DNA of 25,551 nt, from the IMG/VR virus record IMGVR_UViG_3300035698_004311, positions 1 to 25,551 of that record. One strand, written 5' to 3'. This DNA comes from a virus. The translations under genes and the position numbers were made by a program. Positions 3,013 to 15,568 of the stretch are shown here, piece by piece. The notes beneath the pieces are model-generated. The model saw only the letters and a list, made by a program, of their open reading frames with translations. It was not told where the DNA came from and made no database searches. The first letter of the stretch is position 1, and each line of letters begins with the position of its first letter.

Positions 3013-4389
3013 CTATACTGCCGTTTCATCATATTTATGAGATTCTGAAAGTGTAGCCGCATTGCTTAACTGATAACCATAATTATGCCCAACATTCCAG
3101 CCTTGATTATGATTTGAACCAAGGCTTGCACTTGCATTGACAGCACTCAAAGCACTTGCCGCTATTTGCGCTGAAATATTTCCACCAGTCTTGATAGATT
3201 CAGATGTTAATTGCAAGGCCCCAAGATACCCCTGAATAGCCAATTCAGCTTCTTTCAAGGTTATAGATGTTTCATTATTCGCTTGGTCAATGCTACCCTG
3301 ATAAACTTTAATTTGTGCATCAAGATCAGCAGCAGCCACTCTTGCGTCAGCTTCATAGCCGGCTATTTTATATCCATAAACTTTTGCTATCTGCTCGACA
3401 ATTCCCAATTCTTTTGTAACTTGGACCTTATATTTTTCAACATTTGCATTATATTCATCAATCACACTGCTATTAGCAGCAACAGCGGCATCAACTTTTA
3501 CTTTTTCTATTTCAGCTTCAATTTTAGACCCTTCTATTTCGGCTGTGTACCCTTTCATTTTAATATCAAATAAATCGATTATTACCTGTATTGTTGCCTT
3601 AGATGCTTCAAGAGTTCTGTTTGCCGTTGCTGTAAATTGTTCTTTATCCTGCCCTTCAAGAGTGATTGCGGCTGTCATGGAAGAATCTGACTGTGCTCTG
3701 GCAAGTCTGGCCTGTTCTATTAAAATTTCATAATTAAGTTGTGCGTCTGCTCTGGTTTGTTCGGCTAAAGCTTCTGTTAATCTACCACCTAAAGCACCCG
3801 GCGGGATCGTGTAGCCTCTCGAAGAAAAATATTCTTCTGCTTCATTATATGTCTTTTCGTTTACAATATCGAGTCTCGCTTGAGCACGAGCCCATAAAGC
3901 AGCTTCTACGGTTGAACTAAGGCCAGTGCCACCATCTTCAATAAAAGCTTCCAATGCTACCTTGAGAGCATCCTGAAGGTCTGATTGATAAACAGGTTCC
4001 TCATAGTCAAGTTCGTTTTCGGGAGCTGTCAAAGTGTATGCTGGAATTGATATGGAAGGAACCGTTATATTGTTTATCGTTCCTATCACTGGCGTAGCAA
4101 CATCAACAGGTGTTAATTCCGCATCTGTTGGAGCTTCAGGTCTGTAACTTGATATATCAGAGTCAAGAACTATATCTTGATGTTCGTATGAAATATCCGA
4201 TGTGGGCATAGCAGCACTGGTGAAGAGAGATGATAACGAATCAAGATATACTTGTGCGGCATCGACTTGCTGCACGGCTAATGTTTCAGCAAGTTCAAAC
4301 CGTTCAGCAACTAATTCATCTGCTTCGGTTTCACCTACTCCTGCCTCTTTGTAAGGCACATCATTTATTGATAGTGGATGAGTTGGCAT
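3013..4389 (-). CDS. Long coiled-coil phage structural protein
   Basis: A 458-residue protein; SD GAGGAG lies before ATG 4389. The N-terminal 40 residues are acidic and helical. Residues 60-135 are Pro/Thr-rich linkers. From residue 138 on, it is mainly long Ala/Glu/Gln-rich helix. The segment SRGYTIPPGAL (190-200) within an Ala-rich helical stretch matches a motif that I know from structural proteins of many podovirus- and siphovirus-like phages (recall only, no search done). Residues 250-400 look like a long coiled coil. The end is Gly/Asn/His/Tyr-rich (GWNVGHNYGYQ). It probably belongs to the tail or ejection apparatus. The exact location in the virion is not determinable here. Confidence 0.8.
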   Translation of the reverse strand: MPTHPLSINDVPYKEAGVGETEADELVAERFELAETLAVQQVDAAQVYLDSLSSLFTSAAMPTSDISYEHQDIVLDSDISSYRPEAPTDAELTPVDVATPVIGTINNITVPSISIPAYTLTAPENELDYEEPVYQSDLQDALKVALEAFIEDGGTGLSSTVEAALWARAQARLDIVNEKTYNEAEEYFSSRGYTIPPGALGGRLTEALAEQTRADAQLNYEILIEQARLARAQSDSSMTAAITLEGQDKEQFTATANRTLEASKATIQVIIDLFDIKMKGYTAEIEGSKIEAEIEKVKVDAAVAANSSVIDEYNANVEKYKVQVTKELGIVEQIAKVYGYKIAGYEADARVAAADLDAQIKVYQGSIDQANNETSITLKEAELAIQGYLGALQLTSESIKTGGNISAQIAASALSAVNASASLGSNHNQGWNVGHNYGYQLSNAATLSESHKYDETAV

Positions 4390-4426
4390 TTCAAACTCCT
4401 CATTTTATTAAACACTATTTATAATT

Positions 4427-5551
4427 TTACCACCAAACATAATGACCTGACCAAGTAGCTGACGATACACAATCAACTTCGTTACAAGAACTTACTATAT
4501 ATGTTCCTGCTTCTTCTACAATCTTTTTTACTTTTCTCAGTGATAAATTTGAAATTTGTATTTCTAAACCAGCTAAATTCCAATCAACACTAAATCTATT
4601 ATTTTTACTCCCCAAATAGCATATTTGTTGGATATTTAAAGCTATTACATGAATTGCACTTCCTTTATTACTCTGTAATAGTTCAATACATTGCGTTAAA
4701 GAACCCGAATAATCATTCCCGCAGTCAACAGGATCTTCGGTACCATATTCACATTCTTCACCGCCAAAATATTCCAAATATCTATTCTGGTAATGACCCG
4801 CAAATCTGCACTTTGCTGCATGGTCTTCGTCTTCATCATCATCATCTTTCCAAGTAGGAATTCTACATAAGGCTTCTGCCTGAATATTACCCGGGCATTG
4901 CCATTCGTTAAGATTCGATATAATTGTAGTTATTGTTGGTTTCACTACAGAAAAATCATAAGAAAGATAATACCAACCATCTGTTAAAGAACTGGACTCT
5001 TTTAAATTAAACGCTAATGTATAATCATATACAGCCCATACCGGCCAAGAGGACGTAACCAAAGAACTGTTACAAGAAGTTTGTTGTTCTGTTATTTTTA
5101 ATCCCTGACTATTATCAGTATCAATAGTTTCTGTCCACTCTCCCCGACTTGCAAGATCTCTTCTATTATAACTTATTTCATATTCTATATCACTTGCAAA
5201 ATCAGTCCCAAGATCTTCGTCGGTTATATCTTCGCAAAGAATTCGACAGTATCTTGGCAGACCATCTTCAAACCCAACAACTTTCATATTTGCAACAGAT
5301 AAATTTTTGGCATCCCCATAATTTACTATTATAACCCTATCACCTTCTGCGAATTGGAAGTAAGGCGATCCGTCTGCTATTGTTTTTGATTCAGAGCAAT
5401 GATAAAAAATAGGTATATCAAAAAAAGAATCATAGTCATCTATATCAACATCAACAGTCATGGCGACTTTATCCATATCTGTCACCTTCCCAACAAGAAC
5501 ATGAACAGTCCCAGCGTTTTTAGCTTCTATTTCTACAACTTCGTGTGTCAC
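4427..5551 (-). CDS. Acidic, Cys-containing virion-associated protein, unknown
   Basis: A 374-residue protein starting with GTG at 5551. The start is supported by a GTGA overlap with the upstream stop and by AGGAG 7 nt before it. Residues 10-100 look like a small beta-barrel (VLVGKVTDM, then GSPYFQFAEGDRVIIVNYG), similar in pattern to OB-like modules. The middle is Asp/Glu-rich (DDDDEDEDH). Cysteines occur as scattered pairs (for example EVDCVSS and SSCNE near the C-terminus). I do not recognise the family. It shares the barrel-like motif pattern and Cys content with the gene immediately upstream, and lies between appendage genes and the coiled-coil protein, so a tail-tip or fibre-attachment role is possible. 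That role is inference. Confidence 0.75.
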   Translation of the reverse strand: MTHEVVEIEAKNAGTVHVLVGKVTDMDKVAMTVDVDIDDYDSFFDIPIFYHCSESKTIADGSPYFQFAEGDRVIIVNYGDAKNLSVANMKVVGFEDGLPRYCRILCEDITDEDLGTDFASDIEYEISYNRRDLASRGEWTETIDTDNSQGLKITEQQTSCNSSLVTSSWPVWAVYDYTLAFNLKESSSLTDGWYYLSYDFSVVKPTITTIISNLNEWQCPGNIQAEALCRIPTWKDDDDEDEDHAAKCRFAGHYQNRYLEYFGGEECEYGTEDPVDCGNDYSGSLTQCIELLQSNKGSAIHVIALNIQQICYLGSKNNRFSVDWNLAGLEIQISNLSLRKVKKIVEEAGTYIVSSCNEVDCVSSATWSGHYVWW

Positions 5552-8609: not shown

Positions 8610-9326
8610 TTAACTCGCTGGCATAGTGAAATCGGCAGTATCACAAGTAACCGTAGCTCCTAACGCAACTGTCGTAGAACTTAAAATCATTGCCACACCT
8701 GAAGTGCCTACAAGCCCCTGACATCTCTTTGATGTTGTACTTAACCCTGTGACCCTACCATTATCATAAAGTCTCCACCATGCCGCCACTCCTGCTGCTA
8801 TTCCAGCATCAGACCATGTATCTGTATTTTTTGAAAGAACGCCTGAAGCAATCGCATCAAAGTTTAAACCATTGGTTGAAGTTCCAGGTGTTAAAGTACC
8901 ACCATCTTTAGTAATTTCAAGCAAACACGTTCCCGATCCTTCGTCAGCATCAGCCGTAGCCGGTACTGCACCAGAATAAACACGAATAACCGCATTATTG
9001 AATATGTCCTTAAACCCTTTTGAATTGGCTGTAATTGTTACAGATTCACCAGCATCATCATCAACCAATGTACCAGCTATTTCCATTTCTGAGCCATCCG
9101 ATTCAATAGAAGTTATCGTGGTTATTTGATTGTTTGCAGTTGTACCTGTAAAACCAGATATTGTAATCGTGTCTTCAGGCCTGAATCCCGCATCGAATAA
9201 TCCATCACCTGAATCTTCAATGGTAAATGTACCTGTGTCCTCAACAGCCTTTAAAGTGATTGCCGTAATTGTGTCGGCATCTCCCATCAAAGCGTTGCGA
9301 AGACCTGTACTTATTTTAAATGCCAT
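8610..9326 (-). CDS. Phage structural protein with inserted beta-barrel module
   Basis: A 238-residue protein. SD AAAGGAG lies before ATG 9326. The ends (MAFKISTGLRNALMG at 1-15, then FNNAVIRVYSGAVPATADA from 109 and a C-terminal LSSTTVALGATVTC) match a common phage virion protein in which these parts are usually adjacent. About residues 17-103 look like an extra small beta-domain (FRPEDTITISGFTGTTANN, IAGTLVDDDAGESVTI) inserted between them. The role is probably a capsid or tail structural component. The family assignment rests on recall of the pattern, not on a search. Confidence 0.7.
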   Translation of the reverse strand: MAFKISTGLRNALMGDADTITAITLKAVEDTGTFTIEDSGDGLFDAGFRPEDTITISGFTGTTANNQITTITSIESDGSEMEIAGTLVDDDAGESVTITANSKGFKDIFNNAVIRVYSGAVPATADADEGSGTCLLEITKDGGTLTPGTSTNGLNFDAIASGVLSKNTDTWSDAGIAAGVAAWWRLYDNGRVTGLSTTSKRCQGLVGTSGVAMILSSTTVALGATVTCDTADFTMPAS

Positions 9327-9356
9327 GATAAAATCTCCTTTGTTATAATTATTTTA

Positions 9357-9385
9357 TTGACTATTTGTTTAAATCTTAATATTAT
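9357..9385 (+). promoter_or_regulatory. Sigma70-like promoter of the plus-strand HNH gene
   Basis: TTGACT (9357-9362), a 17-base spacer and TATTAT (9380-9385) read toward the HNH gene. The predicted start of transcription is about 9390-9394, at the first strand of the structured leader. It is the only promoter-like match in this gap on the plus strand. Confidence 0.55.
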
Positions 9386-9388
9386 ATT

Positions 9389-9485
9389 GATGCGGATAGG
9401 GTAGCACCCGAAAAGTGGTACTCAAGCAACCACCTGCCGCATTCCTAAATAGCTTGAACAACCCTTTGCTTGGAAGGATTATATT
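9389..9485 (+). promoter_or_regulatory. Structured 5' leader of HNH gene with loop-to-RBS pairing
   Basis: The outer stem is ATGCGG 9390-9395 with CCGCAT 9437-9442. Inside it are two hairpins: GGGT 9399-9402/ACCC 9406-9409 and GTGGT 9415-9419/ACCAC 9429-9433. The loop of the second (ACTCAAGCA, 9420-9428) can pair with GCTTGA 9452-9457 (six bases, pseudoknot) or with TGCTTG 9467-9472, which touches the SD GGAAGGA (9472-9478). The start ATG is at 9486. The two pairings exclude each other, which suggests translational control. No known riboswitch or ribozyme class was recognised. Confidence 0.5.
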
Positions 9486-10121
9486 ATGCCACCATTTATT
9501 GATCTTACCGGAAAAACTTTTAATCGCCTTACTGTTCTTGAACGTGCTAAAAATAAACATGGAGAAAGTTCTAAATGGAAATGCCAATGTATCTGTGGTA
9601 AAAAATTTATTACTCGTGGTTTTGCAATTAGGTCTGGTAAAACAAAATCTTGTGGTTGTCTCAATAAAGAACTTTCTGTTATAGCCAATACTATTCATGG
9701 TATGTGGAAAACACATGAATACCACACATGGCAAAGCATGATTCAACGTTGCTATAATCCTAAAAACCCAAAATTTAAACGATATGGGGCACGAAATATC
9801 AGTATATGTAAAAAATGGAAAAATGATTTTAAAATATTTTTTAATGATATGGGTAAATGCCCTCCAAGTTTTACGATAGAACGTATTGACAACGACGGAA
9901 ACTATGAACCGTCTAATTGCAAATGGGCGTCGGCCAAAGAACAAGCAAATAATACCAGTCGAAATGCTTTGGTCACTATTAATAGCTGGACTCTTAATAT
10001 TACGCAATGGGCAACCTATGTTGGCTTGAATGCAAGAACAATCCGAACCAGATTGCGTTTGGGATGGCCAATTGAAAAAGCTATATTTAAACCAGTTAGA
10101 TATCATAAACCTTATTCCTAA
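9486..10121 (+). CDS. Free-standing HNH-type homing endonuclease (CGC zinc-site family)
   Basis: A 211-residue protein on the strand opposite to all surrounding structural genes. SD GGAAGGA lies 7 nt before ATG 9486. The N-terminal part has a Cys-rich zinc site (KCQCICG 32-38 and SCGCL 55-59). The middle has the signature of phage HNH-like endonucleases: HGMW and YHTWQSMIQRCYN (71-91), YGARNISICKKW (100-111), and IERIDNDGNYEPSNCKWAS (131-149). The C-terminus (170-200) looks like a helix-turn-helix DNA-binding element of the NUMOD kind. It probably makes a site-specific cut in phage DNA lacking the insertion and spreads by repair. Three bases separate its stop from the convergent neighbour's stop; neither flanking gene looks interrupted. 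Confidence 0.9.
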   Translation: MPPFIDLTGKTFNRLTVLERAKNKHGESSKWKCQCICGKKFITRGFAIRSGKTKSCGCLNKELSVIANTIHGMWKTHEYHTWQSMIQRCYNPKNPKFKRYGARNISICKKWKNDFKIFFNDMGKCPPSFTIERIDNDGNYEPSNCKWASAKEQANNTSRNALVTINSWTLNITQWATYVGLNARTIRTRLRLGWPIEKAIFKPVRYHKPYS

Positions 10122-14740: not shown

Positions 14741-15568
14741 TTATTCTCCTTTTCTTTTATTAAGTTGTTGCTTTAATTTATAATTTTCAAGAGCAAGACG
14801 TTTTACATCTTTATCATAAATGTCTTGCAGTCTTTGTCCAGCAGGATGGCCATTCAACCAAATTTCAAGATTGTCTGGTTCATTATTTGATCTGATTCCA
14901 TCTTTATGATGAACTCTTTCAAAATCGAATAATTCCCGTCCTAATATTTGTTCCATAACATATCTGTGCTGTGGGATTCTTTTTCCATTTCCAGCTTTTC
15001 CTGTGGTCATCATTATATATCCACTTGGTACTATATATCCATTTTCATGACGAAGAGCTAAACCAGCACATTGATGAGAACAATATTTTTTGCCATATCC
15101 TCTTTTTAAAGGTTCCCCACATTGCTCACAATATTTTTGTTTCCATGCAATGTGTTTATTATGACATTTTTTTGAACAATATTGACCTTTGCCTTTTGCT
15201 AATTCCTTATCAGTCAAATCTCTAATGAATTTTGCCCCACAATTTTTACATGTTAATATCCTGTTATTATCAGGAACTTGTTTTGTGGCAAAAGCATTTG
15301 CGCATTTCAAAGAACAGTATTTTTGATTTTTATGACCCTTACAATGAATAAACTCTTTACCGCAATACTTACACTTTTTTGATTTGTCGCTTATTGTAAG
15401 TTTACGATCTTTCCATTGATAGTTGCTTTTACATGAAGTTGAGCAACATCGTGGAACATCTTTGGCCAAATCTATTGGTGGAATATATCTACTAAATTCT
15501 TTACCACAGTATGCGCATGTTCCTGTAAAATTCGGTTTCTTTTTTCCACCATCTTTTTGTTTCCCCAT
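14741..15568 (-). CDS. HNH endonuclease with four N-terminal zinc knuckles
   Basis: A 275-residue protein; SD AAGGA lies 8 nt before ATG 15568. Four CX2C...CX3C zinc knuckles are visible: C18/C21-C42/C46, C66/C69-C85/C89, C107/C110-C131/C135 and C147/C150-C163/C167. The C-terminal half has an HNH_3-type nuclease core: QHRYVMEQILGREL (200-213), VHHKDGIRSNN (219-229), PDNLEIW (231-237) and HPAGQR (241-246), with H201, H220, H221 and N233 as likely active or metal-binding residues. A coiled coil ends the protein. It lies between the capsid gene and a coat-type gene and has its own promoter, as expected of a homing endonuclease moving as an intergenic element. Confidence 0.9.
   Translation of the reverse strand: MGKQKDGGKKKPNFTGTCAYCGKEFSRYIPPIDLAKDVPRCCSTSCKSNYQWKDRKLTISDKSKKCKYCGKEFIHCKGHKNQKYCSLKCANAFATKQVPDNNRILTCKNCGAKFIRDLTDKELAKGKGQYCSKKCHNKHIAWKQKYCEQCGEPLKRGYGKKYCSHQCAGLALRHENGYIVPSGYIMMTTGKAGNGKRIPQHRYVMEQILGRELFDFERVHHKDGIRSNNEPDNLEIWLNGHPAGQRLQDIYDKDVKRLALENYKLKQQLNKRKGE

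Follow-up and report, generated by a model that had tools for sequence, protein, structure and literature searches.

Why does a stand-alone HNH endonuclease gene, lying between two virion genes of the opposite strand, carry a promoter and a folded leader of its own? Here, we present an analysis of this leader in a 25,551-nt stretch of viral DNA (from here on, the window). The analysis was motivated by an earlier note on the same DNA, which described a promoter followed by a three-way junction and a loop with two mutually exclusive partners, one of which would hide the Shine-Dalgarno (SD) sequence. The note took this as translational control of a selfish nuclease, recognized no known riboswitch, ribozyme, or group I intron, and left open whether the leader senses something, times expression, or is an inherited remnant.

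The leader of the HNH gene is an int-alpA RNA

The elements of the leader and its gene are as follows.

9357 to 9385, plus strand: sigma-70-type promoter TTGACT-17-TATTAT (TTGACT at 9357 to 9362, TATTAT at 9380 to 9385)
9389 to 9443, plus strand: core of the int-alpA RNA, a three-way junction (matched by Rfam RF02996 and by our model R1)
9389 to 9396 with 9436 to 9443, plus strand: P1, with one A.G mismatch beside the junction
9397 to 9398, plus strand: junction TA
9399 to 9409, plus strand: P2, GGG-TAGCA-CCC (stem 9399 to 9401 with 9407 to 9409)
9410 to 9414, plus strand: GAAAA
9415 to 9419 with 9429 to 9433, plus strand: P3, GTGGT/ACCAC
9420 to 9428, plus strand: P3 loop ACTCAAGCA, the putative antisense element, complementary to sites A and B (loop and targets covary family-wide)
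9434 to 9435, plus strand: CT
9452 to 9457, plus strand: site A, GCTTGA, predicted single-stranded loop partner (loop pairing −8.8 kcal/mol; position within the family peak at +6 to +11)
9463 to 9477, plus strand: predicted SD hairpin CCTT[TGCTTGG]AAGG (−4.5 kcal/mol; a hairpin around site B is found family-wide)
9467 to 9472, plus strand: site B, TGCTTG, placed in the loop of the SD hairpin and complementary to the P3 loop (pairing −8.2 to −9.6 kcal/mol)
9472 to 9478, plus strand: SD sequence GGAAGGA, recognized by sequence
9486 to 10121, plus strand: stand-alone HNH endonuclease gene, 211 aa, between two minus-strand virion genes (phrog_374, E 7e-72, residues 1 to 204)

The promoter, the three-way junction, the loop, and both of its partners are thus present exactly where the earlier note had placed them, and the protein is an HNH endonuclease by a whole-protein match to the phrog_374 profile. 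P1 begins 4 nt past the final base of the promoter. Sites A and B are each fully complementary to a part of the P3 loop, and the two parts overlap; site B touches the SD, the 3′ arm of the SD hairpin is part of the SD, and the ATG of the HNH gene follows at 9486. The two pairings have similar energies in the window (−8.8 versus −8.2 to −9.6 kcal/mol). When the 39-nt leader was shuffled, two non-overlapping loop-complementary sites of at least 6 nt arose in 24 of 200,000 shuffles.

The earlier note named no RNA family for the fold; we found that the leader matches the int-alpA family (Rfam RF02996) at 9389 to 9460 over the full model (1 to 71) with 37.9 bits, above the gathering score of 35.8, and shares its junction letters. 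Our own covariance model R1 scores the leader at 51.9 bits, with the window being among the sequences from which R1 was built. The Rfam comparison that the earlier note had proposed yielded a known family but not a riboswitch: no known riboswitch family matched the leader, and the C4 model (RF01695), which scores the P1 and P4 RNAs at 69 and 75 bits, gave no match in window positions 9300 to 9600 at E values up to 1. Folding of the leader as a single sequence gave no significant stability (z of −0.35), and the minimum free energy (MFE) structure has a different pairing. Single-sequence folding alone does not reveal the three-way junction; the support for it comes from comparison, i.e., from the Rfam match and from covariation.

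Int-alpA RNA is reportedly due to Weinberg in 2017. A published function was not found in the searchable literature, in which the RNA is mentioned as a list entry only and which did not include the original description. The name refers to a location between integrase and alpA genes and is not a sequence criterion; the order in Escherichia coli D5 (integrase, RNA, hypothetical protein, HTH regulator) fits it. The window copy lies elsewhere, between virion genes and upstream of the HNH gene, and it would control the endonuclease gene and not an open reading frame flanked by int and alpA. Because most of the relatives that pass the Rfam cut-off also lie elsewhere, we do not count this location against membership. 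Rfam files int-alpA as an sRNA gene, and its structure line has no pairing to downstream sites; however, its consensus loop, CCuUua, is complementary to the tail uaAgGG, so that the Rfam model holds the loop together with site A.

No U-run or terminator was found after P1 in the window leader; hence, a short trans-acting form would need processing. A second int-alpA copy was not found anywhere in the window, including upstream of a second, unrelated HNH gene (HNH_3; phrog_1271) among the virion genes at 14741 to 15568 on the minus strand. A 245-codon open frame on the minus strand (9369 to 10106) runs antisense to the RNA leader and the HNH gene and is probably fortuitous.

One loop and two downstream sites are usually kept matched across the family

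Pattern scans of IMG/VR and GTDB genomes, followed by a structural descriptor, yielded 186 relatives, among which 131 different P3 loops occur. The junction letters TAG, GAAAAG, and CCTG are conserved among them. The descriptor required P2 and P3 to pair, so their pairing proves little. By comparison, P1 was not initially a filter, and at least five of its eight positions are paired in 186 of 193 descriptor matches. Covariation in the core was scored at 0.674, versus 0.143 after shuffling, in an alignment that was drawn from loci with at least six P1 pairs, such that P1 is partly selected.

Pairing between the loop and its targets was never a criterion for selecting relatives. At least one downstream site complementary to the loop is present for 84% of the unique loops, versus 20 ± 3% when loops and leaders were swapped, and at least two such sites are present for 57%, versus 2.0 ± 1.2% (maximum 6.2% in 300 swaps); conversely, no second exact 5-nt site exists for 43% of the unique loops, and for 16% there is none at all. 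This excess is confined to the downstream side, as the 60 nt upstream, where targets of the a1/b1 type would lie, gave 18% and 2% for at least one and at least two sites, respectively. The P2 loop was considered as a second antisense element and rejected, because its values (25% and 3%) are near background.

After P1, the sites form two peaks, at +6 to +11 (A) and +18 to +26 (B), usually 14 to 15 nt apart. In 96% of the family members with two sites, the A and B pairings share at least three loop bases; because both use the same loop bases, they are mutually exclusive. Across the family, the A pairing is the stronger one in 58 of 100 loci and the B pairing in 33 of 100. Of 96 members, 84 have an SD that overlaps site B; the start codon follows site B by a median of 8 nt. 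Site B also lies in a hairpin loop, with a mean of 4.06 Watson-Crick stem pairs in 100 two-site loci compared with 2.72 ± 0.10 when the 3′ flank was swapped, whereas the stem around site A has a mean of 2.61 such pairs. In agreement with the earlier note, a loop with two mutually exclusive partners, of which one lies at the SD, is maintained by compensatory change over some 130 loops and among the HNH homologues described below.

Two further features were found near P1 in parts of the family. In 25 of 127 loci, a −10-like hexamer begins 8 to 11 nt ahead of P1, where it would let transcription start at P1 (versus 1.9 ± 1.7 loci for other 4-nt blocks and 7.5 ± 2.4 after shuffling), and a T-rich sequence (at least six T in 8 nt) follows P1 in 20% of loci versus 2.5%. 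Together, the hexamer and the T-rich tail suggest that part of the family may be made as a free short RNA. Two int-alpA copies were found in 4 of 43 records, most records having a single copy; four are too few to weigh action in cis against action in trans. In one record (L162 in G042, 64163 to 64327), the copies stand in tandem about 100 nt apart.

The leader is found sporadically with HNH genes and precedes many other genes

The earlier note had proposed to look for compensatory changes upstream of homologous HNH genes, and these were found. Five loci (L136, L140, L130, L148, and L066) encode HNH proteins 33 to 46% identical to that of the window, and each has its own int-alpA-type leader, which passes the Rfam int-alpA cut-off in all but L136. 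Their loops contain GCCUUG and their sites are of the AAGGC type, whereas the window has ACUCAAGCA with GCTTGA and TGCTTG. In another HNH leader (L318), the loop CTCATCA (CUCAUCA) is matched by GATGA and TGATGAG. The phage at L397 has homologous adaptor, head-closure, and virion genes but no HNH gene at the junction that carries it in the window; rather, an HNH gene whose product is 46% identical to that of the window lies elsewhere in this phage, preceded by a related leader. This leader has no R1 match, its junction GAAAAG having drifted to GATAAAG, and its loop, CUGCCACUGGUACUU, faces sites ACCAGTG/ACCAG; despite the drift, this loop of 15 nt remains complementary to an 8-nt site A (TACCAGTG) and to a site B of ACCAG. 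The regions of L397 concerned are 1353 to 1991 on the minus strand and 4382 to 4578, and its HNH gene with the drifted leader occupies a different intergenic place. The comparison of L397 with the window suggests that the nuclease travels with its leader.

Of 80 HNH relatives gathered through their proteins, L318 alone carries the int-alpA unit, as judged with R1 and with a looser descriptor; a match at L350 was discounted as low-complexity sequence (1 of 240 in the shuffled control). Because 1 of 80 relatives has the unit, the association of HNH genes with int-alpA is sporadic. A blastn comparison of the window leader with isolated phages gave short matches only, to its AT-rich promoter end.

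Nor is the unit special to selfish nucleases, to which the earlier note had confined its reading. HNH proteins are the commonest annotated group among 127 downstream proteins (phrog_374, 12; phrog_953, 11; phrog_99, 8; overlapping), in counts that are skewed by the search patterns used. The RNA also precedes DUF1376/primosomal and other replication genes, Rha antirepressors, GIY-YIG/NUMOD genes, a DUF927 primase, a Dam methylase, and many genes of unknown function. In one group of phages (L005, L010, L015, L051, L089, and L120), the RNA is followed directly by the gene for a DUF927/primase-polymerase-like protein of about 940 aa, and the loop sites in this group are less regular. Eleven phage or prophage loci, several of them from Enterobacterales (L007, L031, L045, L049, L074, L094, L106, L143, L191, L196, and L233), have a nearly identical loop (CATCGTCA) and targets upstream of small genes that differ widely, as would be the case if a single immunity group had taken up many genes.

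The layout resembles that of C4 and CI antisense RNAs

C4 of phages P1 and P7 and CI of P4 (RF01695) are likewise three-way-junction RNAs in the leader of the gene that they control, and the RNA, a first site, the SD site, and the gene follow one another in this order. C4 acts at the ribosome-binding site, where it blocks translation (PMC12197685). P4 CI pairs with upstream and downstream sites, and its pairing at seqA and seqC leads to premature Rho-dependent termination (PMC4825925). Both C4 and CI work in trans (PMC4825925, PMC12197685). In the P1 record, a2 follows the RNA directly, and b2 immediately precedes the start of icd; b2 matches the P3 loop, while a2 matches the strand 3′ of P3. 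As in P1 C4, the loops of the window leader (through site B at 9467 to 9472) and of the family are complementary to a downstream SD region, with the other site directly past the RNA. In contrast, C4 has two antisense segments, a′ in the junction and b′ in the loop, while int-alpA has one loop for both sites, and C4 also has the upstream targets a1/b1, for which int-alpA showed no excess. The two RNAs are different covariance families, and one locus (L213) carries both separately. We therefore suggest that int-alpA works like a C4 and not that it is one, and the mechanism is transferred by analogy. In this element of Enterobacter sichuanensis, C4, isrK, and int-alpA RNAs occur together (L213, 1029 to 1214 and 3715 to 3780, both on the minus strand).

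Hairpins that sequester the ribosome-binding site are known for the phage homing endonucleases I-TevI, mobE, and segB (PMC3014915). There, as is predicted here, a structure at the ribosome-binding site damps translation of the endonuclease; however, those hairpins are local, whereas here a separate folded RNA has a matched antisense loop that is aimed at the SD hairpin.

A probable self-targeting antisense regulator of HNH translation

Based on sequence and comparison, we consider it probable that the int-alpA leader is a self-targeting antisense regulator, the loop of which controls HNH translation through the SD. Transcription would start at about 9389, and folding of the RNA into the three-way junction would expose the P3 loop. 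Its partner would be either site A or site B, the latter through a loop-loop interaction with the SD hairpin. Pairing with B would block the ribosome and keep the nuclease at a low level, possibly limiting its cost; pairing with A would occupy the loop, and the SD would stay available. By analogy to P1 C4 and P4 CI, the likeliest form is that RNAs ending before site A would repress full-length mRNAs in trans; for this trans-acting form by itself, we see the chances as about even. We speculate that site A keeps the mRNA's own loop busy, in which case repression would rise with gene copy number.

Alternatively, the leader may be a folding switch that acts purely in cis, in which the loop of a single mRNA pairs with A first (ON) or with B later (OFF), no separate antisense RNA exists, and transcription speed, ribosomes, or a protein tips the balance between A and B. 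In favor of this reading, one transcript carries both sites within 50 nt, the sites compete for the same loop bases, most records are single-copy, and the window has no terminator. However, C4 and CI, the closest functional precedents, act in trans (PMC4825925, PMC12197685), and the T-rich tails after P1 in a subset of loci suggest a free RNA. We regard the cis switch as a real possibility that falls somewhat short of an even chance.

Transcription attenuation as in P4 CI, with A/B pairing leading to premature Rho-dependent termination and a translation block being secondary, is rather unlikely. P4 CI provides the precedent with seqA and seqC (PMC4825925), and there are two target sites here too; however, 84 of 96 members have site B at the SD, and its spacing to the start codon is fixed, which argues that translation is the direct target. 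A ligand-sensing riboswitch with pseudoknot alternatives is highly improbable. The conserved junction letters and the sequestration of the SD do resemble riboswitch architecture, but the downstream genes have no pathway in common, and the variable loop/target pairs look like specificity determinants and not like a fixed expression platform; nothing in the analysis pointed to ligand sensing, and the nearest functional precedent is an antisense immunity RNA. Least probable of all is a fortuitous structure or functionless remnant, with which the unremarkable MFE z-score and the lack of the unit in most HNH relatives would agree, since the loop and both sites match in the window beyond chance, covary family-wide, and remain matched.

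The RNA family itself is already known; what is new is the function that we propose for int-alpA, self-targeting antisense regulation. This would give a concrete function to an orphan family of structured RNAs that is common in phages and prophages, and would extend the C4/CI principle of an antisense loop directed against an SD to a second RNA family, in which loop and targets coevolve. A candidate regulator of this kind, together with a promoter, can thus accompany a selfish HNH gene. Moreover, the many matched loop/target pairs would represent a natural library of translational switches with differing specificities. As a tentative and rather doubtful extension, int-alpA RNAs may be a large class of antisense keys that are interchangeable and fit a two-site lock each (linear A and SD hairpin B), and with which phages, satellites, and selfish nucleases would control copy number or superinfection. 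If so, a resident copy would silence incoming copies with the same loop, and new loops would give rise to new immunity groups.
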